IMG/VR virus record: IMGVR_UViG_3300043434_000302
Location: 1-58,229 of that record
Length of the DNA stretch: 58,229 bases
Reading direction: 5' to 3' (one strand)
DNA from: a virus
Of this stretch, positions 19,101-49,147 are shown piece by piece (position 1 is the first letter of the stretch; each line of letters begins with the position of its first letter). The notes beneath the pieces were generated by a model, which was not told the DNA's origin, did not search any database, and saw only the letters and a program-made list of their open reading frames with translations. The position numbers and the translations under genes were made by a program.

Positions 19101-19130
19101 TTGACACATCAAAATACCTTCGACTATTAA
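19101..19130 (+). promoter_or_regulatory. Strong sigma70-type early promoter
   Basis: A perfect -35 box TTGACA (19101-19106) and a -10 box TATTAA (19125-19130) are spaced by 18 bases. The location at the head of the rightward operon of small genes makes it the likely early promoter, read by the host RNA polymerase, since the phage shows no RNA polymerase of its own. Confidence 0.75.
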
Positions 19131-19187
19131 CTAGGTCGTCGGCAGCGACACAAAACACTGACCCGCTCTTTGACATTGTGAAACGCT

Positions 19188-19259
19188 TGATACCTACGGG
19201 GGCTCCGGTCCCCGCTAGGATCATCACACCGCAGTCCGCTGCCGTCTGGTGATTTTAGC
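19188..19259 (+). promoter_or_regulatory. Structured leader with inverted copy of the CCAGA/CGAGGAT-type element
   Basis: A GC-rich hairpin CGGGG...CCCCG lies at 19197-19214. Read on the opposite strand, 19214-19259 gives GCTAAAATC-ACCAGA-CGGCAG-CGGA-CTGCGG ending in CCTAGC. It shares the run ACCAGACGGC and the two-helix layout with the element at 20000-20048, though the 3' side of the loop differs. The first early gene's ribosome binding site AAGGAG follows directly. Function unknown. Confidence 0.4.
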
Positions 19260-19272
19260 AAGGAGAAAGTAA

Positions 19273-19491
19273 ATGAATAAACAAGTTCTAATCGACGCCG
19301 TCCGCGATCATGCACTGGCGAACTACAACAGCAACGGCTGGGATTATCTGGTTGAGTGCTGGGAAGACGGAGACATCCTCGAGGTGATCGAGGGTGCCAC
19401 CAGCGAGAAGCAGGCCATCGCCAAGGCCAAGAAAGCTCTCGCACCGCTCGACGAATATCGGAGTGAGGTTCGATCATCCGGCGAGTGGTGA
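19273..19491 (+). CDS. Small early protein, 72 residues
   Basis: The first gene of the early operon encodes MNKQVLIDAVRDHALANYNS followed by a WDYLVECWEDGDILEVI core and a charged end. It has the ribosome binding site AAGGAGAAAGT shared with two other early genes. Acidic, soluble, no membrane helix. I do not recognise the family; small proteins in this position often take over host processes. Confidence 0.85.
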   Translation: MNKQVLIDAVRDHALANYNSNGWDYLVECWEDGDILEVIEGATSEKQAIAKAKKALAPLDEYRSEVRSSGEW

Positions 19492-19495
19492 TCCA

Positions 19496-19545
19496 CTGAC
19501 TTCCCCAGACCGTGGGGTTCTGCTCCACGGCGAGGATGAATTCAG
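19496..19545 (+). ncRNA. CCAGA/CGAGGAT internal-loop RNA, copy 1
   Basis: Helix P1 pairs CTGACTTC (19496-19503) with GAATTCAG (19538-19545), with one mismatch at the fifth position. The inner helix pairs CCGTGG (19510-19515) with CCACGG (19525-19530). Between them lie the conserved strands CCCAGA (19504-19509) and CGAGGAT (19531-19537). It sits five bases after a stop codon, and the ribosome binding site AAAGGAG begins at 19547. See the finding on this motif. Confidence 0.8.
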
Positions 19546-19560
19546 CAAAGGAGAAAGTAA

Positions 19561-19743
19561 ATGCGTTACCCAATCATCGATACCACCCGCAGCTACACCG
19601 TCGAGCGCAACGTCTACGGCGACGAGTACGCTGGCTGGACTGTAGTTGAGCACTGCCCAGTACATGGCCTGCAGCCGTGGGAGTTTGTCCACGCAACATA
19701 CGATGAGGCGAAGGACAGTCTGGAAGCGTTCTTCGCGGACTAA
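19561..19743 (+). CDS. Small early protein, 60 residues
   Basis: The protein (MRYPIIDTTRSYTVERNVYG...) has a compact beta-rich look with WTVVEHCPVHGLQPWEFVHAT and a helical acidic end. The two histidines and one cysteine in CPVHG are not enough to claim metal binding. The ribosome binding site AAAGGAG lies right after the structured RNA copy 1. Function unknown. Confidence 0.82.
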   Translation: MRYPIIDTTRSYTVERNVYGDEYAGWTVVEHCPVHGLQPWEFVHATYDEAKDSLEAFFAD

Positions 19744-19754
19744 TCATTAACGGG

Positions 19755-19770
19755 GGGGGCTTCGGCCCCC
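19755..19770 (+). promoter_or_regulatory. TTCG-capped intergenic hairpin
   Basis: GGGGGC-TTCG-GCCCCC forms a six-pair stem with an ultrastable TTCG loop, 11 bases after a stop codon and before the ribosome binding site of the next gene. No T tract follows, so RNA stabilisation or processing is more likely than termination. A similar hairpin lies at 27955-27974. Confidence 0.65.
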
Positions 19771-19794
19771 AATAATCCAAGGAAGGTAATTAAT

Positions 19795-20004
19795 ATGACC
19801 AACATTGAAGCAATTATGCGCACAGCCGATCAATTGATCTTTGCAGCCGATGGCTATGCAGACGACGAAATGGTCTGGTTCGACAACGAACGATGGTTCG
19901 CAGGACGGCTGCGCGAGATGGCCGATGATCTTATCGATGACAACATCGAAAGCTGGGCCGTCTTCCAGCTAAACAAGGCGCACGCCGCTGGCTTCAATTA
20001 CTAA
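19795..20004 (+). CDS. Small early protein, 69 residues
   Basis: The acidic helical protein starts MTNIEAIMRTADQLIFAADG and contains DDEMVWFDNERWFAGRLREMADDLIDDNIESW. The ribosome binding site AAGGAAGG precedes it. Its TAA stop lies inside the outer helix of the next structured RNA element, so the RNA can fold fully only when no ribosome covers the stop. Function unknown. Confidence 0.82.
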   Translation: MTNIEAIMRTADQLIFAADGYADDEMVWFDNERWFAGRLREMADDLIDDNIESWAVFQLNKAHAAGFNY

Positions 20005-20048
20005 CACCACCAGACGGCGGAGCGATCCGCCGCGAGGATGGCGCTAGT
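20000..20048 (+). ncRNA. CCAGA/CGAGGAT internal-loop RNA, copy 2
   Basis: P1 pairs ACTAACACC (20000-20008) with GGCGCTAGT (20040-20048), with mismatches at positions 5 and 7. P2 pairs CGGCGGA (20015-20021) with TCCGCCG (20026-20032), capped by the GNRA loop GCGA. The conserved loop strands are ACCAGA (20009-20014) and CGAGGAT (20033-20039). The helices differ completely from copies 1 and 3 yet remain paired. The upstream stop codon TAA (20002-20004) lies in P1. Confidence 0.8.
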
Positions 20049-20070
20049 GCCAAATACGAAAGGAATGTTT

Positions 20071-20445
20071 ATGTCTTTGAATTGGGATGTCTCGAAGATC
20101 GAGAACAACAAGGAAGTCTGCTTCACAGGTGAGGGCGACAATCGCTGCCTCGATCCCGTGACCAACACGTTGATCTGGTACACGTTGTGCCTTGGCATTG
20201 GCGAGATCAGCGAGAAAACCGTCGATGAGTTCTACATTCGCATGAACCTGTTCGACAGGCTCAGCACCGGACCCATGCACTGGGAGGCTGCAGGCTATCG
20301 CTCGATCACTCTCGAGGAGCTGCGGCAGCACATTGGCCTACACACCAACGTAGGTCGCGGTGAAGCACGCAGCAAATGGTTCAAGCGCAAGGTCGACGGC
20401 GTTGTCCGCGATCTCGAGTATGACCTGCGCAAGCAAGTCGCATAG
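20071..20445 (+). CDS. Conserved early phage protein, 124 residues
   Basis: The start at 20071 is set by AAAGGA at 20059-20064; earlier in-frame ATGs are too close to it or lie in the structured RNA. The protein (MSLNWDVSKIENNKEVCF...) has a conserved TNTLIWYTLCLGIGEISEKTVDEFYIRM core seen in podovirus early proteins of unknown role. Its TAG stop is part of stem II of hammerhead A. Confidence 0.85.
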   Translation: MSLNWDVSKIENNKEVCFTGEGDNRCLDPVTNTLIWYTLCLGIGEISEKTVDEFYIRMNLFDRLSTGPMHWEAAGYRSITLEELRQHIGLHTNVGRGEARSKWFKRKVDGVVRDLEYDLRKQVA

Positions 20446-20503
20446 TCGAAACCCCTTCGGGGGTCTGGTACGGACTGACCGCCTGCCACTGATGAGACTG
20501 GTC
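20444..20503 (+). ncRNA. Type II hammerhead ribozyme A
   Basis: Core GAAA (20048 offset, at 20448-20451) leads into stem III ACCCC-TTCG-GGGGT (20451-20464), then the cleavage nucleotide C at 20465. Stem I follows (TGG...CCA with an inner CGG/CCG), then CTGATGA at 20489-20495. Stem II closes with AGTC (20444-20447) and GACT (20496-20499). The predicted cut is after 20465. The 3' GGTC can pair with GACC in stem loop I. It starts within the stop codon of the upstream gene. Confidence 0.93.
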
Positions 20504-20517
20504 GAATGGAGATCAAC

Positions 20518-20691
20518 ATGATTGACGGATTAAAAACATTTTGTGCTGGCTTGGTCGTTCTGATCATTGCCAGCCTCATCATCGTCCAGCCCCGCTACAT
20601 TGGCTATGGCTGCAAGAACGCAGATGTTCCGCTGTTCGCTAAGTACGAAAGCGACTTCCCCACATGTGAGCGGATCGAACCAATTTTCTAA
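20518..20691 (+). CDS. Small membrane protein, 57 residues
   Basis: The start at 20518 follows GGAG at 20508-20511. The protein has one membrane helix (TFCAGLVVLIIASLIIV, about residues 6-22) and a short C-terminal domain with two cysteines (GYGCKNADVPLF...FPTCERI), which could form a disulfide if it faces the periplasm. It begins after the ribozyme A cleavage point, so it would be on a transcript with a 5' hydroxyl end. Function unknown. Confidence 0.8.
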   Translation: MIDGLKTFCAGLVVLIIASLIIVQPRYIGYGCKNADVPLFAKYESDFPTCERIEPIF

Positions 20692-20703
20692 GGGAGAGCA
20701 CCA

Positions 20704-21033
20704 ATGACACAAGTTATCGATCTTGAACGCTTCGCCACCAAGGGCGAGGTCACTGTAGTGAAACGTCTGGTCCGCATCGTGCTCGAGCGCGGATACATTG
20801 TCAGCATCAATGACGGCGAAGAGTGGACCGTCAAGCTCAGCACTGACCGCAAAGAGATTCTGTCCGCCCTTGGAACCACTGGCGAGGACATCATCCGCCT
20901 TTACAAGGACGGCGAACGGGCCGGATCGATCTGGCTGGTCTACGGCAACGCTGAGGACGGCAGCGAGCTGATCGCGGATCACAGTGACAACGAGGCATGC
21001 CACAGCATCTACGCTGAGGTGTACCCCAACTGA
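20704..21033 (+). CDS. Early protein of unknown function, 109 residues
   Basis: The protein (MTQVIDLERFATKGEVTVVK...) has AAGGGAGAG ten bases upstream of the ATG. It is an acidic alpha-beta protein with a DDGEEWTVKLSTDRKEIL-like centre and GTTGEDIIRLYKDGERAGSIWL. It follows the membrane protein by 12 bases. Its stop TGA is inside helix P1 of the next structured RNA. Confidence 0.83.
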   Translation: MTQVIDLERFATKGEVTVVKRLVRIVLERGYIVSINDGEEWTVKLSTDRKEILSALGTTGEDIIRLYKDGERAGSIWLVYGNAEDGSELIADHSDNEACHSIYAEVYPN

Positions 21034-21080
21034 CTTCCCCAGACTGCGGTTCTTCGGAGCCGCAGCGAGGATGAATTCAG
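21030..21080 (+). ncRNA. CCAGA/CGAGGAT internal-loop RNA, copy 3
   Basis: P1 pairs CTGACTTC (21030-21037) with GAATTCAG (21073-21080). P2 pairs CTGCGGTTC (21044-21052) with GAGCCGCAG (21057-21065) around a TTCG loop. The loop strands are CCCAGA (21038-21043) and CGAGGAT (21066-21072), identical to copy 1. The ribosome binding site AAGGAG follows P1 immediately. Confidence 0.82.
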
Positions 21081-21094
21081 CAAGGAGAAAGTGA

Positions 21095-21277
21095 ATGACC
21101 GAAGAGAAACTGGATGACTACACCGCCGTCATGATCTGCGAAGGCGTCGAAGATGCGGACTATGACCGCACCGTCGAAGCTTGGCAGTACCTGCATGACA
21201 CTGGCCTTGCCTACCGCCTCCAAGGATGGTTTGGCCGCTACGCTCAGTCGCTGATCGAACAAGGGATCATTGGCTAG
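21095..21277 (+). CDS. Small acidic early protein, 60 residues
   Basis: The protein (MTEEKLDDYTAVMICEGVED...) is acidic and helical, with a TVEAWQYLHDTGLAYRLQGWFGRYAQSL stretch that resembles short phage proteins of the DUF-type small helical class. AAGGAG precedes the ATG by eight bases. It lies between structured RNA copy 3 and hammerhead B, so its transcript would carry an RNA element at each end. Confidence 0.82.
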   Translation: MTEEKLDDYTAVMICEGVEDADYDRTVEAWQYLHDTGLAYRLQGWFGRYAQSLIEQGIIG

Positions 21278-21278
21278 C

Positions 21279-21340
21279 AGTCGAAACGCCTTCGGGCGTC
21301 TGCGATGGGATGGCCTCCCCGCACTGATGAGACAGGCCAT
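21279..21340 (+). ncRNA. Type II hammerhead ribozyme B
   Basis: Stem II strand GTC (21280-21282), core GAAA (21283-21286), stem III ACGCC-TTCG-GGCGT (21286-21299), cleavage C at 21300, stem I TGCG..GGGA-TGGCC-TCCC.CGCA (21301-21323), CTGATGA (21324-21330) and stem II GAC (21331-21333) give the full hammerhead. Loop I TGGCC can pair with GGCCA at 21335-21339 to form a pseudoknot. The cut is predicted after 21300. Confidence 0.95.
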
Positions 21341-21354
21341 ATATGGAGAATGAC

Positions 21355-21618
21355 ATGGATGATGATGATTATATGGAACTTGGTGGCCTAATCGGCGAGT
21401 ACGGGATTACAAACGTCTTTAGCGCCGCGCTGGCCCATCAAGAGCAGTACTTCGAAGAAAGGCTGGCTGATTTGCTAAAGGCTGCTTCTAATGCCTTAGC
21501 CGATCTTGAAGGCATCATGCCGGAGTTTGAGCCAAGCGGTGATCGCGAGCATCCCGCATGGCAAACCATCACCGATCTTCGAAATGCAATTGAAATGGCG
21601 AAGGCAGGCTTTGAATAG
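21355..21618 (+). CDS. Early protein of unknown function, 87 residues
   Basis: The start at 21355 is preferred because GGAG lies eight bases upstream; an ATG at 21343 overlaps the ribozyme tail. The protein (MDDDDYMELGGLIGEYGITN...) is acidic and mostly helical, with a coiled segment SAALAHQEQYFEERLADLLKAASNALADLE. Its stop TAG forms part of stem II of hammerhead C. Confidence 0.82.
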   Translation: MDDDDYMELGGLIGEYGITNVFSAALAHQEQYFEERLADLLKAASNALADLEGIMPEFEPSGDREHPAWQTITDLRNAIEMAKAGFE

Positions 21619-21678
21619 TCGAAACGCCTTCGGGCGTCTGCGATGGGATGGCCTCCCCGCACTGATGAGACAGGCCAT
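21617..21678 (+). ncRNA. Type II hammerhead ribozyme C
   Basis: This copy is identical to hammerhead B over about 60 bases: AGTC (21617-21620), GAAA (21621-21624), stem III ACGCC-TTCG-GGCGT (21624-21637), cleavage C at 21638, stem I (21639-21661), CTGATGA (21662-21668), GAC (21669-21671) and the 3' pseudoknot strand GGCCA (21673-21677). It begins in the stop codon of the 87-residue gene. Confidence 0.95.
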
Positions 21679-21694
21679 GTAAGGAACAAGAATA

Positions 21695-22069
21695 ATGAAA
21701 ATCGTGTCTATACATTTTGACGGGGCAACCCGTTTCCAGAAGCCGTATGCCTACCTAACCGACATCGACGATATCAGTGTCGGTGATACCGTTGTCGTGG
21801 ACTCTCCGCATAACGGATTCGCATGCGTGAAGGTTGTAAGCATCGGGGAAACTGCTGAGCAGATCGAGAAGGCCCACAAGTGGATCGTCTGCAAAGTTGA
21901 TACCACATCGTATCTTGAGCGCTTGGAACGCGAAGAAAGGCGTAAGACCGTTATCGCAAAGCTCAAGAAGCTCGAGCAGCACCTTGTCGAAGAGGATCGT
22001 TTCGCGATGCTGGCTAAGCTCAGCCCAGAGGCATCCGCCCTACTCGAGGAGCTCAAAACGCTGAAGTAG
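21695..22069 (+). CDS. Early protein of unknown function, 124 residues
   Basis: The protein (MKIVSIHFDGATRFQKPYAY...) has an N-terminal beta domain with ISVGDTVVVDSPHNGFACVKVVSI, the look of a small SH3-like barrel, then a long basic coiled coil (LERLEREERRKTVIAKLKKLEQHLVEED). AAGGAA lies ten bases before the ATG. Its TAG stop is in stem II of hammerhead D. Similar two-part proteins occur in other phages without assigned function. Confidence 0.83.
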   Translation: MKIVSIHFDGATRFQKPYAYLTDIDDISVGDTVVVDSPHNGFACVKVVSIGETAEQIEKAHKWIVCKVDTTSYLERLEREERRKTVIAKLKKLEQHLVEEDRFAMLAKLSPEASALLEELKTLK

Positions 22070-22128
22070 TCGAAACGGGCTCAGGCCCGTCTGGCGGGGT
22101 TGCCTCCCGTCACTGATGAGACAGGCAA
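22068..22128 (+). ncRNA. Type II hammerhead ribozyme D
   Basis: GTC (22069-22071), GAAA (22072-22075), stem III ACGGGC-TCAG-GCCCGT (22075-22090), cleavage C at 22091, stem I TGGCGGG/CCCGTCA (22092-22112, one G-T pair), CTGATGA (22113-22119) and GAC (22120-22122). Stem III differs from the other copies at several paired positions and remains complementary. Loop I TTGCCT (22100-22105) is a perfect complement of AGGCAA at 22123-22128, just before the ribosome binding site. Confidence 0.95.
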
Positions 22129-22139
22129 AGGAGACTGAA

Positions 22140-22220
22140 ATGACTGACAACAAACTGCACGTAGCAATACGCTGCGGCATCTTCGCGATCATCGTGATTG
22201 CCGCCAACATTTGCGCATAA
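22140..22220 (+). CDS. Very small membrane protein, 26 residues
   Basis: The frame encodes MTDNKLHVAIRCGIFAIIVI and ends AANICA, mostly one membrane helix. AAAGGAG at 22127-22133 supports the start, directly after the pseudoknot strand of hammerhead D. Small single-helix phage proteins can modulate host membranes or other phages; nothing here specifies the role. Confidence 0.65.
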   Translation: MTDNKLHVAIRCGIFAIIVIAANICA

Positions 22221-22446: not shown

Positions 22447-23316
22447 ATGAAACAGGACGTTTACGAAACGGTCACCAACAAGGTGCTCGAGATGATGGAG
22501 ACACATGGCGCGAACTGGATCAACCCGTTCGCTCGCAAGGGCAAAGCCCTCCAGCCACACAACATCATCAGCAAGAAGCCATACCGTGGCATCAACCACA
22601 TGATGCTGCTCTGGTCACCATATGAAACGTCTGCTTGGGGAACCTTCAAGCAGTGGAACGAGAAGGACTGCAAAGTCCGCAAGGGTGAGAAGTCCACCCC
22701 CATCGTTTTCTGGCAGTTCATCGAGAAGGAAGACGACAAGGGCCAGAAGGTCACCATCCCTTTCCTTCGTCAGTACTATGCATTCAACGTAGCTCAGGTA
22801 GAGGGTGACTTTGCTGAGCGTCTATTGACCTGTACAGATAATGGTACAGGTGCAGAGGATATCGCGGCGGCTGAGGATTTTTTCCGCCAAATCCCTGCGG
22901 ATGTACATCACACACCAACTGGTCGTGCGTACTACAACCCCATGAACGACTTCATCAGCATGCCAAGCAAGGATGTCTTTGAAGATACGCCGACAAGCAC
23001 TGCGACTGAGAGCTACTACAGCACACTGTCACATGAGCTGACGCACTGGACGGGTCACACGTCACGTCTGGATCGCCTCACCAAGTCGCGCTTCGGTGAC
23101 GAAAGCTATGCACGGGAAGAGCTGGTCGCTGAGATCGGGGCCGCATTGCTGTGCGCCCACCTCGAGATCAGTTCCTCGCCTCGCCCAGATCATGCCCAGT
23201 ACCTCAACGGATGGATGAAGGCGCTGTCAGATCACAAGAAGGAATTCGTATCAGCAGCAGCGGCTGCATCTAAAGCAGTCGATTTCGTAATTGAAGCAGC
23301 AGGAAAGGAAGCCTAA
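22447..23316 (+). CDS. ArdC-like antirestriction protein
   Basis: The 289-residue protein has an N-terminal ssDNA-binding-type domain (DUF1738-like: NPFARKG, PYRGINHMMLLW, WGTFKQWNEKDCKVRKGEK). A C-terminal zincin-like domain has the metal site HELTHWTGH at residues 196-204 and a downstream EELVAEIGA glutamate. ArdC proteins on plasmids and phages shield incoming DNA from restriction. The start at 22447 follows GAAGGG. It fits an early gene made soon after DNA entry. Confidence 0.9.
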   Translation: MKQDVYETVTNKVLEMMETHGANWINPFARKGKALQPHNIISKKPYRGINHMMLLWSPYETSAWGTFKQWNEKDCKVRKGEKSTPIVFWQFIEKEDDKGQKVTIPFLRQYYAFNVAQVEGDFAERLLTCTDNGTGAEDIAAAEDFFRQIPADVHHTPTGRAYYNPMNDFISMPSKDVFEDTPTSTATESYYSTLSHELTHWTGHTSRLDRLTKSRFGDESYAREELVAEIGAALLCAHLEISSSPRPDHAQYLNGWMKALSDHKKEFVSAAAAASKAVDFVIEAAGKEA

Positions 23317-39841: not shown

Positions 39842-42800
39842 TTAGCGCTTCTCCGCCTCTTCGATGAGGTCGTTGAACTCCGTCATGATGGCGGTGATCT
39901 CGTCGTCAAGCTTCTGCGTCTCTGACGGCTTAGCCCCTTCAAGGATCATCTTGCGACGCTCCCTGCGTAGGTCAGATACGTCACGGTAGTAAGACCCAAC
40001 GGAGTCGATAAGTTCTGCCTTCGGGTTCTCATCAAAGACCTCCGTGGTGTCCTGATCATTCTCTTCCCTAAGCTTGACCGTCTTCTTGAGCTCGTTGACG
40101 GCCTTGACGTTGTCGTAGAACTTGCCTCCTTCAGACGTCTTCCCACCGACTTCCCCATAGAAGCGCCTCACGAAGGCTATGTCGTTTGCTTCTATCTGCT
40201 CGCCACTGGATCCCTTCTCGAGAGTTGCTGTACTGCGGTACAGGAATTGCATGGGTGGCAGAACTTGCTCTACGAAGAACTTGATCTCTTCTGGGGTTGG
40301 TGACATGCCTCCAACCTCATACTCATCGCCGCCAGTGACATAGTTAATGACCTCCGCCGCCCTGCTGTACATGGCGTACATGACGGTGGTATCTCCCCGT
40401 GCGCGGCTCATGCCGGTGGTTGGGTTCAGGTCGTTGAAGTCCTTGTTGTAAATACGACGACCAAGACCATCTTCGTTCATCGCGTATTGGACGAACATAT
40501 CGAAGACTGATGGTGAGACAAACTCAATGAACCCAGCGCCGTAGGCAATTGGGTTGACGGAGTTAATCATGACCTTCGCTGAGCCACCAACAAACTGTCC
40601 GAATGAAAGCTGTCCTCTTGCTGCCTCAACCATGCGCCGACCAATGGCAGGGAACATGTTGTAGAAGTACGGCATTGGGATAGCGACATACTTGTCGGTG
40701 TCTGCGAACAGGCCAAGAGGGATAATGAAGGCGTGGTCCTTCACCCACTCTGGTATGTCGTCCTCGTCGTAACCAGCAGCGGCAAGTGCCAAGCCTTGAA
40801 TGACGCCCAGTCCAACGCCGCCAATCAAGATCTTCTTTCCAGCCTTACCCAGCATGGTCTTAATGTTGCGGTCAGTCGATGCGATAGAAGCGTTGGCAAA
40901 GCCGTACAGAGAATTGATCTCGCGTGTCCATTGGCCCTTCTGGTTGAAGTTCACCGTAATGTTCTTCGCGATCTCCGCCGCCTGCGCGTCTGTCATTCCC
41001 TTGTCGATAGCAATCTTAAAGGTGGCAAGACGTGTGGCATTTTCGAGCGCATCATTCCACGCCGTCACATAATCAACGACGACCTTTGGAGCACTCGTCT
41101 TTCCTGTAGACAACTGCTTGACTGCCTTCTGCAACTCCGCCTCCAGTTTTTCTGGATCGCGGTCGAAGTTCTTGAAAAACGACTCTCGAATAGCGGTGCG
41201 TCCACCGGCCTTCTCGAATCTATCGAACAGGTCAGCAACTTCCTGAGATCCAGCAGGCGTAGGCTCGCCACTATCAGTAGCGCGTATGACTCGCACCAGC
41301 TTCTTTGCATACAAAGGAGCCTTAGCCATGATCTTGAATTGCTCACCGTCCAGCGGCGTGCTGGTTAGGTTGACCATCACACCCCAGATGTCGCGTGTGA
41401 AGTTGACCGGTCCAAATTCTGGCATGTATTGAGTGCGCAACTGCGACCACATGCGCGTAATTCGTCCGACATTATTGATAAATGCTGCAGACGCGCCCTC
41501 GAGTGTTGGTAGATCCTCGTTCTTCAATACTGCAGCGATGTCTGTAGCCATCTTCTCGTCAGGATTAAAGACGATGAACTTGTCCGTTCCATCAACGCGA
41601 GTAGCAAAGACGTTTGGCTGGCGCTTGAAGGCGGTGTCGACGATGGTGTCTACGTTGCCAGTGCGTTTGTTGTACGCCCTCTTCGTTGGCGACTTGAAGA
41701 TGTCGTCAGCAAGATCAGGGTCCATGCCCATCGAAACCAACTGCTTGCGCACTTGATCAAGAGTGGCCGTCGACGGATCGATGACCATCCAGAAAGTCTG
41801 GTCCTTGTTTTCCAGCGCAGCCTGAAACACCGTATTGCCAAGACGGTTTGCCTCAGCGCGATTGATAGCCGCCTCCCGCTGCGTAACGATGTTGGCGATA
41901 ATGCTGCTGACCGGCTTGCTTGAGCCAACCGCTGCCTTCAAGGCTGATCCCTCTACGCTTGCGCCACGAGTGCCGAGTGCATGACCACCATCGACACCTT
42001 CGCGGAACAGAGGGACGTAGAACTTATAAGCATTGCGCAGGTTACGAACCGTCTCCGCTGACTCTATGCCAGAGTCCTGCAGTACTTGCAGCGTTCCGTT
42101 TGTTATAACGTCCAGCTTCTTGGCTACAGTCTCAAGGCGGTTACGCTTGGCGGGAGACAGTGCAGCTAAGTAAGCTTTGGCTGCGGCGTCGTTGATGCCA
42201 GAGCCACCATCTTTGAATGCGTCGTTGCGCTGGCGGATAATAGCGTTGCGCTCTACCGCATGCCGGTTGTGCATGTAGGTTTCTACTTCATTGATAGACA
42301 GCGCTTGTTTGCTGATCTCCTTCAGCACTGGCTGCAGTTCATTGAGGTGGAACTCTTGCGTTGTGTATGCAGCACGACTGCCCATCAACTGCTCAGCGCG
42401 GTCGATGTTTGTCTTATCGTTATAGAAGTCGTCGATGTTCTTTGTAAGCTGCTTAACAGAGCGCGTCCTGTTTACGAGTTTCTCGTACCAGTTAACAAGC
42501 CTTGGGAATCGCTCAGCCATTGGGTCCACGCCAAGAACAGCGGGGCCGGTCTTAAACTTAGGTGCGTTCGGACGGATGCTTGGCTTGGTTGCTTTGCCAC
42601 CAATGTTCAGATTGGCTGGACGGCGGACACCAGAGAAACGAATGCCTTCGCCGCTCATCATCTCACGAATACGGCCAGCGTTTGCATAGTTAAACGGCAC
42701 CGCTTCAGACAAGACGGTATTAGTGTCGCCGCTGTTGTACTGATCACTGCGACCTCCACGTTGCGGGGCAAGCGTGAAGTTGTTCAGATCCTCGAGCTGA

Positions 42801-45800
42801 CCGGCACGCCCATCCTGTCGCCGCAGAATAACTGGAACCTGCTCTATGCCAGCAGCCTTGAACGCAGCCATACGGTGACGGCCTTCATGACCCATCACGC
42901 GACGAGGCTGCTCCTTGCCCGAAGCCATGTAAGGTTCAGCGATCTCAAGGAACAGTGGCTGGTCTACTCGACGCAACTCATCAACATTCAATGTGCGAGC
43001 GCGAGTCTTTTCTGGATCCATCGTTGCGAGGAGATCACGCCCCTTGCTCGACAGGGTAAGACCAAGGAACTGATCTGGAGACATGAAGGTGATCCAAGCC
43101 TTAGTCTTGTTATCATCATCAGGATAGGACAGATCCTGCAGCAGTAGATCGGTACGCTCTGGTGTGTAGACCGCACGATTAGTTCGGCCAGAGTACTGGA
43201 CGTTACCAGCCTTGCTCGATTGAGCTGCTACGGCGTCATCGTACTGGTCGAAGTACTCGCCCTCGCCCTTCGTATAGAAATCGCTGCGTGCAGGATCATG
43301 GTACATGAAGACAACGTCTGGCTCTCCGTTGTTGAAGGCGGAGAACTCAGTCTTGTCCCAGTTATCTGAAGCTGCCTCATCGCTCCATTTGACTCTCGAT
43401 GCGACCTTAAAGCCAGCCGTCGAGTACAGGTAAGGCAGGACAGTGTCGTATGCGTCAAGTCGGCGAGCGCCTAACCAAACCGCCATGCGTGCGAGCGGGA
43501 TAGCAACACCCCTAGCTTCTGATGTCGGATGCTTGAACACCGACACAAGGTCATCGCCCTTAATAGCAAAGCCAGTGAGCCCATCCTCAGTGAGGAACAG
43601 GCGCATGTCGGCGTAATCTTTCTTATCGTAGACGTAGACTGCAGCACCAGCCTTATTGGCCTTCTGCGCTTCAGATATCAGTCGATGGTAAAGCTTGGCG
43701 GAAGCTTGTCCAGCAGTTAGTTCGAGGAACTTTGGAGCATCAACACCCGCCACAGCGAGTGCGTTCTTTACCTTTACTGAGTGGCTGTATGTAGCAACTA
43801 CAGGTGTGCGGCCCTCTATGCTCCGCGCAAGGTTTCCACCAGCTTTTCTGCTGACATGTTCGGATGGTCTTCCAGAAGTTGCTGACCCAGCGCCATCAAG
43901 AATGGGGAATTCTTTATTGAGTCTGGTAACGACTGAATCTTGGATGAAGCGTCTGGCGTCTCTGGGCGCGAATTCATTAGCGGCCCCAGATTGTCCGTTA
44001 GCGTTTTGATTGACGGCTCCTCCGCCCAGAACGCTTCCTGATCCTTGTCCCCGTCCCCCCTTGGGTTGAATGGCGGTACTGATTTGCCCATCTGTAAATC
44101 CTCTTTTCTTGGCAATGCGAACAAACTCGTCGTAGTAGCTGGTTTCGCCAGCACTACCCGCATCGTCTGCGCCCTTACCCTTTTCCCGTACACCAAACTT
44201 CTTAGACCACAGTCGCTTCTCTGGATACCAGAGAACGGCCTGAAGATCAGCATTCGTAATGTTAATACTATCGCCTTGCAAGATCTGCTGCGACTTAGCA
44301 ACAATATCCCGTATCCAAGTGCGCTGCCAATCAGCCTTCGGTGCATCCTTTGTGTCTTCAAAGCTGGCAAGAAGGCGCTGTGCAGCAAGCGCGGTCTCTG
44401 GCTTAACCTTCTCTCCGCTGTCATAGGCGGCGCGGTTAACCTTAAAGTCCTTCTCGAAGGCCTTGGACTCAGCCTGCGCAACCTCAAGCAGCTCTGGTCC
44501 ATATGCGTTTGTCGGACGACCATCATCAGCCAGCGCTTTAGTAAGACGCTCTTCCTGCTGCTGAATAAGCTCAGGATCCGCACCAATAAGGTCACCAGTC
44601 ATGCGGCCCCACGTCCGCATAAACCACATGTCGATGGTTACGGGATCGTAGCGACCATTGAGGTTTGAGTAGAAGCCAAAGCCAATCTTTGGGCCAAGCA
44701 CTGCGCTGCCGTAGACCATCTCTTCGGATGCGCCAGACACATTGCTAAAGCCAGCGGCTCGCAGCTCGCGGACTGTGAACTTGGTGGCAAAGAACTTCGA
44801 GACTGCCTCAGCGCCATACTTTTCAACGATTGAGTTGAAGAGTTTCGCGTTGGAGATAATCGAGGATGCGGCCTTGCCCCAACCTTCGTTCTCAGGGAAC
44901 TTACCATTCTTCTTATAGTGCTCGTACCAGCGCTCAGCAAACACAGCATTGGCATCGACAGATTGATTCTGCGAAGTAATAGCAAGAGCTGCAGTAAAGT
45001 GCAGTTGAGCGCCTACATCAGTAGCGATCTCAGGGTGGATCATGGAGGCGACGGCAGTGGCTTTGCGCATCTCCTCTGTGTACCAGCCAGAAGCGTTTCG
45101 CTTGCCAGAACGAGCCAGCTCAGACTTAACTTCATGGGCTACGGTTTGCGCAAGAAGGTCATCCTTTTGACCGGCTGCAGTAATAGGCCGCCCAAGAATA
45201 GAAAGCGTGCGTTTTTGGATTTCAATCGCAGCTTCAGTGACACCCATCGTCCCTTGCTTAACGTCTGGCTGGGCGAACAGTTCGTCAGCAGAAAGCTTTG
45301 ATGCCTTAATGTTCTTTTTGAACTCGCCTGTGGCGCTGTCTTTCTTGCGCCCAGAGTACTGGATCTGCTGTTCGTCATCTCTGAGCGGAGCAGCCTCAGT
45401 CATGTTCTCCTGAGCCTTGCCGGTGCGGTAGCCCTCAAAGATTTCGGCGACAGACTCAACGCCATTGATGCGGAAGATGTTGCGGAAGCCGCGAAGCATG
45501 TCGCTGATGAAGTCGACAACGCGAATGAAGCTGGCCTTTAGCCCCTTCATGTCAACGCCACGGTCTTTAGCGTCTACGAGAGCACCAAAGGCTACGGCCT
45601 GAGCCTCGAAGCGAGACAGTGGTGTGTCGCCCAAGCTGGCAATGAGGCCGTCATATACACTGCCTTCGCCATCCGTCGTCAGCGTCTTCAGCTTGCGCAG
45701 GATGCTTGGGTCGAGATCGTCAATCCGCATATCGTCGCGGAACGAATTATTAAGAAGCTTGAATGCGTCTGGATCGTAGGCGCGTAGCATGTCCTGAATA

Positions 45801-48800
45801 ACGTGGAACGCCTCATGCGCAGCGTTTTCTCTGGATGCGCCCGTTACGTTATCGCTTAGGGAAAGGGTGATCAGGCCACGGAATCCATTAGGGCTAATCT
45901 TATAGGCGTCATACGAACCACCGGCTTCTTCGCCAAGATCTACACCACTTGCTGCCGCAGCTTTTGCATCACTTGCCGTTATGCTTGGAACAAAAAGGAT
46001 ATCTACCTTTGCGTTTTTTGGCAGAACGCGAGATACAACTTCGCCCATCTGGAAGGCGTAGTAGAGCTGCGTTACATCGTAGTTGTTTTGCTTCAGTAAT
46101 GAACGAAGACGGCTGGCAACGACTTTGCCTTGCGCCCCGCGAGCAGCAATCTTGTCGAGCCTGTCTTGAATGACGGCGTCATAATCTATGTCTGGCTTAG
46201 ACACCTCTTCGCTATCAGCGGTCTTGTCCTTGCTTAGCGGGGTGTCGCGAACAACGTCACTGGCCTTCTTGCGTGGAGCACGGACAGTTTCGCGACGGCC
46301 AGAGTAGCGTGTACCGCCATCATCCCGCTTAGTGTTGAGCTGGCTGATGAGCTCTGGGCCAATATCCTCAGCTCCCATGTCCTTGTCCTTGGACATGCGC
46401 TTGATCTCAGCAAGGTCTGCGTCGTCGATAAGACCTTCTTTATGAACCTTGGTGGCGTAGCGAACAACACCGTTGCGGTCGTCGTTAAGGATCTTGTCTT
46501 CGATACTTTCGACGTGCTTTTCAACCTTGCCGCCATCATCTTGGACAGGCTTCTTCGGCGCAGGTTCTTGGTCAGCTTCGGCTGGCGCTGCTTCTTCGGC
46601 AGGGGCTTCTTCGGTAGGAGCTGTTTCCTCAGCAGGTGCGGTCTGGACTTCCGGTGCCTGCAGTCGAGGCGTGGCAGGAGGACCACTGATTTCGTTTGGA
46701 CCCTCTACATTGCCCTCTACGTTTGGCGCACGCTCTTGCTGTGGATTAACCTGCGCGTTCTGCGCCTGTTGTTCCACCGGCAACTGGTCGGTGTTTGCCT
46801 CAAAGCCCGTCATGCGGGTAGGCGAGATCGTGGTAGGCAGTCCTGCGTCCTGTGTAGGCACCAGAGCTCGCGTACTAGTGCGATCTACTGACTGACGCGG
46901 GTTGAGGTCTGTACCTGTACCCTTGCGTGGCTTGCGCAGATCTCCAGCAAGCTCTTGCGACATGCGCGGCGTGCCACGAACGACGCGATCAAACATTGCG
47001 TTCGGATCAACATCCTCTGAGATAATGACAGGAGTACCGTTGCCATCTACTTCTGTGGGTGACTCGTACTGAATGCGAACCTTGCCACCTTCTGCGCCAA
47101 CAATGGTTGCAGCAATGCCGCCAAGATCCTCGCCGTAGACGGCTGGGTTGAGGAAGAACTGGCTCTCTGGTTCCGGAGCACCTGCACGCAGATCTTCGCG
47201 CTGTGTGAGCTCGCCTGTGGCTGTGTCAAATCGGCGTTGACGAACGTCCGCCAAGCGGAATGCTTGCTGAGCCTCACGTTCCCGCTGAGCTTCATTGGTC
47301 ACATCTTCTTGTGACATGACAACACTGCCTTCACCGCCTCGTTCTGGGCGTGCAAAAAGAGTGCCGGTCTGAGCAGTTGGTTGATAGTTGCTGACGGCGT
47401 TACGCAGGCCGCTGACGAACTGCTTGCCGGTCGACTCTAACGACTTTGCGATGGATGAGAGGGTTGGGCTTTCAGCAATGACGGCTGGGTTAATCTTTGC
47501 CAGCTCGTCGCCAATCATCTGCTTTGAAGTGCTGACAGAGTTGGTGCCGCCAAACATTCCAGAGATACGACGAACGGCTTCAGGCTCGACTCGAGATGCC
47601 TCTTCCTGATTAAGGATGCGAGCAACCTGCTCGACCTTCGTCACGTCGCTCACCGGCTGCGACATGATGTCGGCAATGCGCGGGTTCGACTCGTTGTTAC
47701 GAGCAATATCAAGGATCTGCTCTGGCGTGTAATTCATGCCGCCACCACCGCCGCCGCCTTCACGAGGTGGTGTTGCTTCGCCTCGAGCGGAGAGTGCTGA
47801 GACCAGCTCTTCATCTTCCATTGGTCGTGGCTGGTCGTCAGGAGCATTTCCAGTCAGTCGATTAACAGCGCTCGCACCAGCGCCGATACCACCACCCATT
47901 AATCCGCCAACAATTGCGCCTTCGCCAGCAGCTTTAGCAACGCCTTCTAATGTACCTACATTAGAGCCAACACGCTGCATTGAGACGTTGTTGATGAGCT
48001 GCTCAGATCCTGACTGTGGAGCTTCTTGAGCGGACTCCGCAGCGGTACCTATGCCAAGTTCTTTTAGTGTGCCTCGCCCAGCACTGCCACTTAAAATTCG
48101 AGCCTCAAACACAGAGGCGGGAATCGACATCAGGGCAGTGGTGGCTCCAGTGCTTAGTGCAGCGGCGCGACCCACTTGATTTGCTGCTGCATTCTTTGCC
48201 GCCTCAAAGTCGCCATTGTTTTCAGCAAGAAGCTTTTTACCTAAAGTGCTTTGAGCAAATGCCTCTGGATCGCTATTGATCTGCTCGAGGGCTTGGGCAG
48301 TAACATCTGAACCTGCACTCAAGCCAGCCTGCGTACCTTCTACACCCATGCCAGCAACCGTCATGATTGCTCGTTTACCGACAACTTGAGCCGCCTCTCG
48401 ACCACCCATAGCCGCAGTCGCACCAAACAACTTTGCCAAGCGCGGCGTTTGCGAAATGATCTTTGCGCCAATTGCAGCGACAGCCGCTTCTGGAGCCAAG
48501 GCACCTACTGCTGCAGTTGCAATAGCCCCGCCTACAAGCTCAGGAATTGACTCTGCTACGCCAAGCATGGCGGCGTATGCACGCTGACCAAGGCCCATGT
48601 CCTTGCCAAGAACGCCTTTTTCACGAGCCTCGCGACCGTAGTCAGTCATTTCTGCACTGGCTATTTTCTGGGTGCGGCGAGCTTGATTCTGGAGCCTTGC
48701 GTTTCCAGTTGCGTACCCAATGCGCTTGTCAATATTTGCCATACGAGATGACATGGCGCTGCCAATGTCGCCAAGAAAGCTTTCGTTTTTACCACTTGCT

Positions 48801-49147
48801 GCCTTTGCAACAAGCCGATCCCTATTCAACTGCAAAACTCGCAACTGCTGATCGCGAGTCCCAGCCATGCCTGTCTGCCTCGATGCTCGCAGACCGGCCT
48901 CGTTGTTTGGAAGTGACTTTAGCAAGTTGATCTTCTGGTCAACTTGGGCAATTTCTTGGTTCAACAAATTGGAAAGATTGCTGTTACCTGATGGGCGGTT
49001 TCTGACCTGTGCCTGTGAACTTGCCTGCCCAGTACGCTGAGACACTGGCTGCGCTCTTTGTGCTGGTGGTGGTGTGTCTTTTACCTGATCCCACTGGATG
49101 CTCTGCGCCCAAAGTTGCGCACTTCTCTCATAATTCTTTTCAGCCAT
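39842..49147 (-). CDS. Giant polyvalent protein, 3,101 residues (LPD38-type end, HExxH, ParB-like segment)
   Basis: This single gene takes 16% of the genome and is last in the late operon, after the internal virion genes. An Ala/Gly-rich, membrane-active-looking region lies at about 190-430 and a Pro/Glu/Ala-rich linker at 780-900. A metalloprotease-like HEAFH is at 1111-1115. An acetyltransferase-like part lies near 1876-1918 and a ParB-like GHEGRHR at 2086-2092. The C-terminal part (from about 2600) resembles LPD38 with FNQKGQWTREINSLYGFANA and hydrophobic helices. A motif Y/F-S-G occurs between domains at about 948, 1264, 1985 and 2171. It is probably ejected into the host with the DNA; this role is inferred. 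Confidence 0.9.
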   Translation of the reverse strand: MAEKNYERSAQLWAQSIQWDQVKDTPPPAQRAQPVSQRTGQASSQAQVRNRPSGNSNLSNLLNQEIAQVDQKINLLKSLPNNEAGLRASRQTGMAGTRDQQLRVLQLNRDRLVAKAASGKNESFLGDIGSAMSSRMANIDKRIGYATGNARLQNQARRTQKIASAEMTDYGREAREKGVLGKDMGLGQRAYAAMLGVAESIPELVGGAIATAAVGALAPEAAVAAIGAKIISQTPRLAKLFGATAAMGGREAAQVVGKRAIMTVAGMGVEGTQAGLSAGSDVTAQALEQINSDPEAFAQSTLGKKLLAENNGDFEAAKNAAANQVGRAAALSTGATTALMSIPASVFEARILSGSAGRGTLKELGIGTAAESAQEAPQSGSEQLINNVSMQRVGSNVGTLEGVAKAAGEGAIVGGLMGGGIGAGASAVNRLTGNAPDDQPRPMEDEELVSALSARGEATPPREGGGGGGGMNYTPEQILDIARNNESNPRIADIMSQPVSDVTKVEQVARILNQEEASRVEPEAVRRISGMFGGTNSVSTSKQMIGDELAKINPAVIAESPTLSSIAKSLESTGKQFVSGLRNAVSNYQPTAQTGTLFARPERGGEGSVVMSQEDVTNEAQREREAQQAFRLADVRQRRFDTATGELTQREDLRAGAPEPESQFFLNPAVYGEDLGGIAATIVGAEGGKVRIQYESPTEVDGNGTPVIISEDVDPNAMFDRVVRGTPRMSQELAGDLRKPRKGTGTDLNPRQSVDRTSTRALVPTQDAGLPTTISPTRMTGFEANTDQLPVEQQAQNAQVNPQQERAPNVEGNVEGPNEISGPPATPRLQAPEVQTAPAEETAPTEEAPAEEAAPAEADQEPAPKKPVQDDGGKVEKHVESIEDKILNDDRNGVVRYATKVHKEGLIDDADLAEIKRMSKDKDMGAEDIGPELISQLNTKRDDGGTRYSGRRETVRAPRKKASDVVRDTPLSKDKTADSEEVSKPDIDYDAVIQDRLDKIAARGAQGKVVASRLRSLLKQNNYDVTQLYYAFQMGEVVSRVLPKNAKVDILFVPSITASDAKAAAASGVDLGEEAGGSYDAYKISPNGFRGLITLSLSDNVTGASRENAAHEAFHVIQDMLRAYDPDAFKLLNNSFRDDMRIDDLDPSILRKLKTLTTDGEGSVYDGLIASLGDTPLSRFEAQAVAFGALVDAKDRGVDMKGLKASFIRVVDFISDMLRGFRNIFRINGVESVAEIFEGYRTGKAQENMTEAAPLRDDEQQIQYSGRKKDSATGEFKKNIKASKLSADELFAQPDVKQGTMGVTEAAIEIQKRTLSILGRPITAAGQKDDLLAQTVAHEVKSELARSGKRNASGWYTEEMRKATAVASMIHPEIATDVGAQLHFTAALAITSQNQSVDANAVFAERWYEHYKKNGKFPENEGWGKAASSIISNAKLFNSIVEKYGAEAVSKFFATKFTVRELRAAGFSNVSGASEEMVYGSAVLGPKIGFGFYSNLNGRYDPVTIDMWFMRTWGRMTGDLIGADPELIQQQEERLTKALADDGRPTNAYGPELLEVAQAESKAFEKDFKVNRAAYDSGEKVKPETALAAQRLLASFEDTKDAPKADWQRTWIRDIVAKSQQILQGDSINITNADLQAVLWYPEKRLWSKKFGVREKGKGADDAGSAGETSYYDEFVRIAKKRGFTDGQISTAIQPKGGRGQGSGSVLGGGAVNQNANGQSGAANEFAPRDARRFIQDSVVTRLNKEFPILDGAGSATSGRPSEHVSRKAGGNLARSIEGRTPVVATYSHSVKVKNALAVAGVDAPKFLELTAGQASAKLYHRLISEAQKANKAGAAVYVYDKKDYADMRLFLTEDGLTGFAIKGDDLVSVFKHPTSEARGVAIPLARMAVWLGARRLDAYDTVLPYLYSTAGFKVASRVKWSDEAASDNWDKTEFSAFNNGEPDVVFMYHDPARSDFYTKGEGEYFDQYDDAVAAQSSKAGNVQYSGRTNRAVYTPERTDLLLQDLSYPDDDNKTKAWITFMSPDQFLGLTLSSKGRDLLATMDPEKTRARTLNVDELRRVDQPLFLEIAEPYMASGKEQPRRVMGHEGRHRMAAFKAAGIEQVPVILRRQDGRAGQLEDLNNFTLAPQRGGRSDQYNSGDTNTVLSEAVPFNYANAGRIREMMSGEGIRFSGVRRPANLNIGGKATKPSIRPNAPKFKTGPAVLGVDPMAERFPRLVNWYEKLVNRTRSVKQLTKNIDDFYNDKTNIDRAEQLMGSRAAYTTQEFHLNELQPVLKEISKQALSINEVETYMHNRHAVERNAIIRQRNDAFKDGGSGINDAAAKAYLAALSPAKRNRLETVAKKLDVITNGTLQVLQDSGIESAETVRNLRNAYKFYVPLFREGVDGGHALGTRGASVEGSALKAAVGSSKPVSSIIANIVTQREAAINRAEANRLGNTVFQAALENKDQTFWMVIDPSTATLDQVRKQLVSMGMDPDLADDIFKSPTKRAYNKRTGNVDTIVDTAFKRQPNVFATRVDGTDKFIVFNPDEKMATDIAAVLKNEDLPTLEGASAAFINNVGRITRMWSQLRTQYMPEFGPVNFTRDIWGVMVNLTSTPLDGEQFKIMAKAPLYAKKLVRVIRATDSGEPTPAGSQEVADLFDRFEKAGGRTAIRESFFKNFDRDPEKLEAELQKAVKQLSTGKTSAPKVVVDYVTAWNDALENATRLATFKIAIDKGMTDAQAAEIAKNITVNFNQKGQWTREINSLYGFANASIASTDRNIKTMLGKAGKKILIGGVGLGVIQGLALAAAGYDEDDIPEWVKDHAFIIPLGLFADTDKYVAIPMPYFYNMFPAIGRRMVEAARGQLSFGQFVGGSAKVMINSVNPIAYGAGFIEFVSPSVFDMFVQYAMNEDGLGRRIYNKDFNDLNPTTGMSRARGDTTVMYAMYSRAAEVINYVTGGDEYEVGGMSPTPEEIKFFVEQVLPPMQFLYRSTATLEKGSSGEQIEANDIAFVRRFYGEVGGKTSEGGKFYDNVKAVNELKKTVKLREENDQDTTEVFDENPKAELIDSVGSYYRDVSDLRRERRKMILEGAKPSETQKLDDEITAIMTEFNDLIEEAEKR

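Follow-up and report, generated by a model that had tools for sequence, protein, structure and literature searches.

Four predicted type II hammerhead ribozymes and a second structured RNA element between the genes of one phage operon

Introduction

Why would a single phage operon carry a potentially self-cleaving RNA motif in gap after gap between its genes, and what would become of the transcript? The question is raised by IMG/VR record IMGVR_UViG_3300043434_000302, which we analysed whole (58,229 bases, hereafter the window). That it is a tailed phage is evident from its genes for a terminase, a portal-like head-tail adaptor, tail proteins and internal virion proteins; further genes encode an integrase, an annealing protein of the Sak type and an exonuclease of the YqaJ/RecE type. 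Among annotated phage records, the best match to its terminase comes from Roseobacter phage CRP-7 (35% identity). Positions 39842-49147 are taken up by an open reading frame of 3101 aa that includes an LPD38 polyvalent-protein domain.

The operon lies on the + strand and is probably an early one. Most of its genes have no assigned function: A (19273-19491, 72 aa), B (19561-19743, 60 aa), C (19795-20004, 69 aa, stop at 20004), D (20071-20445, about 124 aa), E (20518-20691, 57 aa), F (20704-21033, 109 aa, phrog_22565), H (21355-21618, 87 aa) and I (21695-22069, 124 aa, phrog_3489). Gene G (21095-21277, 60 aa) belongs to phrog_3908 / DUF7417, and gene J (22140-22220) encodes 26 aa. Downstream of the array, also on the + strand, lies a gene for an ArdC-type anti-restriction protein (22447-23316; ArdcN plus zincin-like peptidase). 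In other bacteria, ardA has been found downstream of hammerheads (PMC3088659).

The operon leader (19101-19262) is conserved. It holds a candidate promoter, TTGACA-18-TATTAA (19101-19130, + strand), which was picked by eye, is kept in the related contig L249 and is absent from the output of the consensus scan. It also holds an inverted repeat, ATCACACC..TGGTGAT, followed by TTTT right before the first Shine-Dalgarno sequence. The gap between genes B and C contains a G-run hairpin, GGGGGGGCTTCGGCCCCC (19754-19772), without a T run.

Results

Identity of the four hammerhead copies

A preliminary description of this DNA had pointed to four intergenic segments with the parts of a hammerhead in type II order, and all four are present. 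They fall within 1.7 kb of the phage record, on the + strand: no. 1 in the gap between genes D and E (20444-20506), no. 2 between G and H (21279-21341), no. 3 between H and I (21617-21679) and no. 4 between I and J (22068-22130). Every copy has a stem II (GUC/GAC), GAAA, a capped stem III with an A15.1-U16.1 pair, C17, a closed stem I and CUGAUGA. The core requirements of the motif (CUGANGA, GAA, A15.1-U16.1 and an H17 other than G) are thus found in four of four copies, and stems III and I are closed by loops while stem II is open, as in the type II order. The cut sites proposed earlier, after C20465, C21300, C21638 and C22091, coincide with the C17 positions read from the sequence and stand as the predicted cleavage sites. 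Copies 2 and 3, which flank gene H, are identical, so that the four copies, although all there, represent three independent ribozyme sequences when this pair is counted once.

The covariance model of this class (Rfam RF02276, Hammerhead_II) has a gathering cut-off of 37 bits and bears out three of the four copies: no. 4 scores 49.1 bits, and nos. 2 and 3 score 39.6 bits each. Copy 1, by contrast, reaches 26.3 bits, below the cut-off, with an E value of 9.5e-5 within its own genome. Copy 1 is nevertheless supported because a ribozyme of the same type in a related contig (L312, 2839-2903) scores 37.6 bits and passes. Against the family as a whole, the copies share the core, the stem order, the short stem II and the pseudoknot described below; besides the low score of copy 1, they differ in that all carry a GUC/GAC stem II. 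No hammerhead of another type reaches its Rfam cut-off elsewhere in the window.

Could these be chance or inactive look-alikes? The low score of copy 1 is the one point in favour of this reading, which we regard as hardly credible given the strictly intergenic placement of the copies, the covariation and the behaviour of shuffled sequence. A search for the exact pattern GTCGAAAC..GTC..CTGATGAGAC gave four matches in the window and none in 100 dinucleotide shuffles, and a structural descriptor gave no match in 40 shuffled windows, which rules out chance similarity. Thermodynamic z-scores of the ribozymes are near zero. The minimum-energy fold of copy 1 is the three-way hammerhead. In a nested fold of copy 2, stem I and the pseudoknot are in competition. 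With the covariance model, the intact cores, the covariation in relatives and the strictly intercistronic position all supporting the assignment, we conclude from the sequence that each of the four is a type II hammerhead ribozyme whose core is intact.

A pseudoknot and its covariation

The strongest extra evidence for the hammerheads is a pseudoknot, common in type II, in which loop I can pair with the 3' tail, the bases directly 3' of stem II. It is present in four of four copies and was overlooked in the preliminary description. In copy 1 it pairs 20476-20480 with 20500-20504 (UGACC:GGUCG, the outer pair being U-G), and in copy 4 it pairs 22100-22105 with 22123-22128 (UUGCCU:AGGCAA). Copies 2 and 3 share AUGGCCU:AGGCCAU, at 21310-21316 with 21334-21340 and at 21648-21654 with 21672-21678, respectively. 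Fast cleavage requires this pseudoknot (Perreault et al., 2011; PMC3088659).

We aligned 16 distinct ribozyme copies from this phage and its relatives (alignment A4). Standard pairs fill 94.5% of the pair cells, against 25-41% when the partners are slid. Two-sided changes occur in 8 of the 17 pairs, three of them in the pseudoknot, and the core bases never change. The stem III covariation that had been noted within the window is real in this wider set of relatives.

Position relative to stop and start codons

The ribozymes of this lineage are fitted closely to the flanking genes. Among 21 ribozymes from the phage and related contigs, 20 have the stop codon of the preceding gene 5-8 nt ahead of GAAA, and in all 21 the next start codon, with its Shine-Dalgarno sequence, follows 20-27 nt past CUGAUGA. 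The whole intergenic space thus consists of a ribozyme and a ribosome-binding site. In three of the four window copies the distance to the stop is 5 nt, so that stem II has the final two bases of the stop (TAGTCGAAA) at its edge, and the TAG stop of gene D supplies the first bases of ribozyme 1. A similar arrangement is found among 128 descriptor matches in other viral contigs, where a qualifying stop lies at most 30 nt before GAAA, or overlaps the element, in 96, and a start lies within 60 nt in 121.

This spacing bears on a reading in which the ribozymes act as a negative control, cleavage inactivating the message unless ribosomes at the flanking stop and start keep the ribozyme unfolded. 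GAAA and stem III would lie under a ribosome terminating at the stop, and the strand that forms the pseudoknot under one initiating on the downstream gene. Because the reading frames and Shine-Dalgarno sequences would stay intact after cleavage, however, loss of function is not expected, and judged from the sequence we consider such control quite improbable. Cutting as such may depend on translation, in that a ribosome at either flanking codon would cover part of the ribozyme.

Gene exchange among relatives

Seven viral contigs (L246-L252) carry a close homologue of gene F (72-88%), and in each of them the same operon contains between two and four type II hammerheads, every one with the pseudoknot. 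Copy 1 is conserved in four of them (L246, L249, L251 and L252). A further contig, L312, has three more hammerheads with the pseudoknot, all above the Rfam cut-off and one of them of the copy 1 type.

The genes between the elements are swapped among relatives whose ArdC proteins are 90-99% identical. Where the window reads gene G, hammerhead, gene H, hammerhead, gene I, contig L249 reads gene G, hammerhead, gene I; contig L251 has an additional 44-aa gene, with a ribozyme of its own, before gene D. One ribozyme of L246 is a chimera, combining the stem III seen in no. 2 with the stem I seen in no. 4. Between relatives, highly identical blocks of DNA begin or end inside ribozymes. Taken together, the block ends, the swapped genes and the chimeric copy indicate that the ribozymes are also the joints of a modular region, and these joints could be exploited by the phage's annealing protein.

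One may go further and suppose that the ribozyme repeats persist mainly because they give homologous recombination between cassettes a place to land in the DNA, with cleavage incidental or lost. Identity blocks that end within ribozymes, chimeric and duplicated copies, and the phage's own Sak-type annealing protein and YqaJ/RecE-type exonuclease would all suit this account. DNA homology alone, on the other hand, does not require compensatory changes in the stems and the pseudoknot around invariant core bases, and both the pseudoknot and the spacing to stop and start codons are maintained. We therefore think it unlikely that recombination is the main reason for their retention. The presence of the ribozymes, their structure, covariation, position, conservation and mosaic exchange are matters of observation.

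A second RNA element

The motif CCAGAC-hairpin-GCGAGGATG occurs three times (at 19505, 20010 and 21039) where none is expected, in operon gaps that hold no hammerhead. It is the core of an element that we call M2, whose consensus comprises a stem P1 with the upstream stop codon, an internal loop NCC(A/G)GAC / GCGAGG(A/C)U and a hairpin P2. All three copies are on the + strand. Copy 1, with the internal loop CCCAGAC/GCGAGGAU, lies between genes A and B just downstream of the gene A stop (19494-19547; 68.5 bits with our model R1) and shows covariation. Copy 2, of a subtype marked by ACC, lies between genes C and D (19999-20049; 60.8 bits), and copy 3 between genes F and G (21028-21082; 72.6 bits); the TAA stop of gene C and the TGA stop of gene F, respectively, fall in the 5' strand of P1. 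With this model, true copies score at least 40 bits and noise at most 17.

In an alignment of 26 M2 copies, 12 pairs show two-sided changes, and the covariation value is 0.44 compared with 0.13 in shuffles (0 of 500 reaching it); extending the set to 40 copies leaves this picture unchanged. In a first set of 29 sites, the stop codon of the open upstream frame occupies a constant position within the lower stem in 28 (two of these frames run off the contig end). In all 49 sites of a second set, collected separately and lying after 23 unrelated gene families, the stop is at that place or at most 8 nt upstream. Since collection mostly used the core motif, conservation of the core is partly by construction, which does not apply to the covariation or the stop position. 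The first loose scans for M2 gave matches nearly all of which were due to chance.

M2 is present in more than 60 viral contigs (among them L226, L244, L303, L308, L311, L319, L329 and L461-L508). In L461-L508, which carry the ACC type, the sequence is nearly the same from contig to contig in many cases, and a conserved near-palindrome, GGCGCTAGTGCC, comes after it; the hairpin of this type is usually capped by a GNRA-like tetraloop. We found no Rfam family at its cut-off for M2, no description of it in the literature that we searched, and, by DNA search, no real match to M2 or the operon in cultured phages.

What might M2 be? Neither its hairpin nor stem III of the hammerheads is followed by a T run, so neither is an intrinsic terminator, and no such terminator was found in the array. 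M2 recalls the attC sites of integrons, which likewise fold and overlap the stop of a cassette gene. This identity was rejected: the alignment (A3) has no conserved AAC/GTT crossover, and the phage integrase scores 29 against an integron integrase cut-off of 265. Nor is M2 a general partner of hammerheads, as none was found in 100 independent loci with the hammerhead pattern, and the fetched DNA held a hammerhead at one of 49 new M2 sites. The association is thus specific to this lineage and offers little argument for M2 being a ribozyme.

Candidate roles for M2 are a processing site, a 3'-end protector, a translation element and a new ribozyme. Tentatively, and well short of likely, it could be an undescribed class of phage RNA that does the hammerheads' job at gene ends, possibly by self-cleavage or processing, the two elements alternating in exchangeable cassettes. 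With a structure kept across unrelated genes and absent from Rfam, M2 may in any case be a new phage RNA class.

Discussion

Returning to the hammerheads, we consider it probable that they cut themselves and so release mRNAs of gene length whose ends are protected, the ribozyme repeats also marking points at which cassettes are swapped. As the operon is transcribed, each ribozyme would fold, with stems I, II and III and the pseudoknot, and cut after C17. On the upstream mRNA, the stem III hairpin would then form the 3' end, just past the stop codon, and carry a 2',3'-cyclic phosphate; the downstream mRNA would start with a 5' hydroxyl and the hairpin of stem I, ahead of a Shine-Dalgarno sequence of its own. 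Hairpin ends bearing a cyclic phosphate or a 5' hydroxyl are poor substrates for the usual bacterial exonucleases and for 5'-monophosphate-dependent RNase E. Such capped, non-standard ends should withstand exonucleases and 5'-end-dependent decay, and each small gene would give an independent, longer-lived message. Genes could also be gained or lost as cassettes with their neighbours undisturbed. Cleavage in the cell, end protection and independent expression are what the sequence would predict, the latter two by way of what is generally known of RNA decay.

Cleaved ends might instead be re-joined into circular or spliced RNAs, as was raised by Perreault et al. (2011), though that study detected no such products (PMC3088659). 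Nor was an RNA ligase seen among the phage proteins scanned, and re-joining seems to us very improbable.

For release of gene-length messages by cleavage, a familiar parallel is phage T7, whose long early transcript is cut between genes by host RNase III, leaving hairpin ends. Cuts in the intergenic regions and hairpin ends are common to both; here the RNA itself would do the cutting, with no host enzyme. To our knowledge, no role of phage hammerheads has been proven since 2011.

The closest precedent is the clusters of hammerheads flanking prophage genes, for which processing into gene-length RNAs was proposed; three tandem arrays cleaved in vitro, and one triple array also did so in E. coli (Perreault et al., 2011; PMC3088659). 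As here, those ribozymes are of type II, form the pseudoknot of loop I with the 3' tail, and occur several to an operon beside short phage genes. What sets the present operon apart is that its ribozymes overlap or abut the stop codon, that they are the sites of cassette exchange, and that gaps of the same operon hold a second RNA element; the present phage group does not figure in the text consulted. The preliminary description had implied novelty by stating that such ribozymes usually occur singly or in small numbers. This does not hold, given the prophage clusters already reported (PMC3088659) and the arrays of up to nine in IMG/VR contigs. Among the matches listed in our IMG/VR scan, 24 of 78 loci have at least two hammerheads, a proportion that is indicative only as the stretches are partial, and the larger arrays have nine (L079, about 4 kb), seven (L088), six (L018), five (L026) and four copies (L075 and L093). 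Four hammerheads in 1.7 kb are a good new case of a clustering already described, and their novelty is limited.

The same design can be seen in a cultured phage. CRP-7 (MK613349) has a type II hammerhead at 570-633 (50.1 bits) that begins in the TAG stop of a small frame and is followed by a start codon, but this is the only copy in the 50 kb searched. In the region concerned (MK613349.1, 423-660), both the small gene that ends in the hammerhead and the ribozyme itself are unannotated. The annotated start of gp02 (619) falls inside the ribozyme, and its likely start is at 660. The lineage described here, with four near-identical cassettes and relatives that have naturally gained or lost ribozyme-bounded genes, offers a compact test system, to which CRP-7 adds a distantly related cultured phage whose hammerhead likewise abuts the stop codon.
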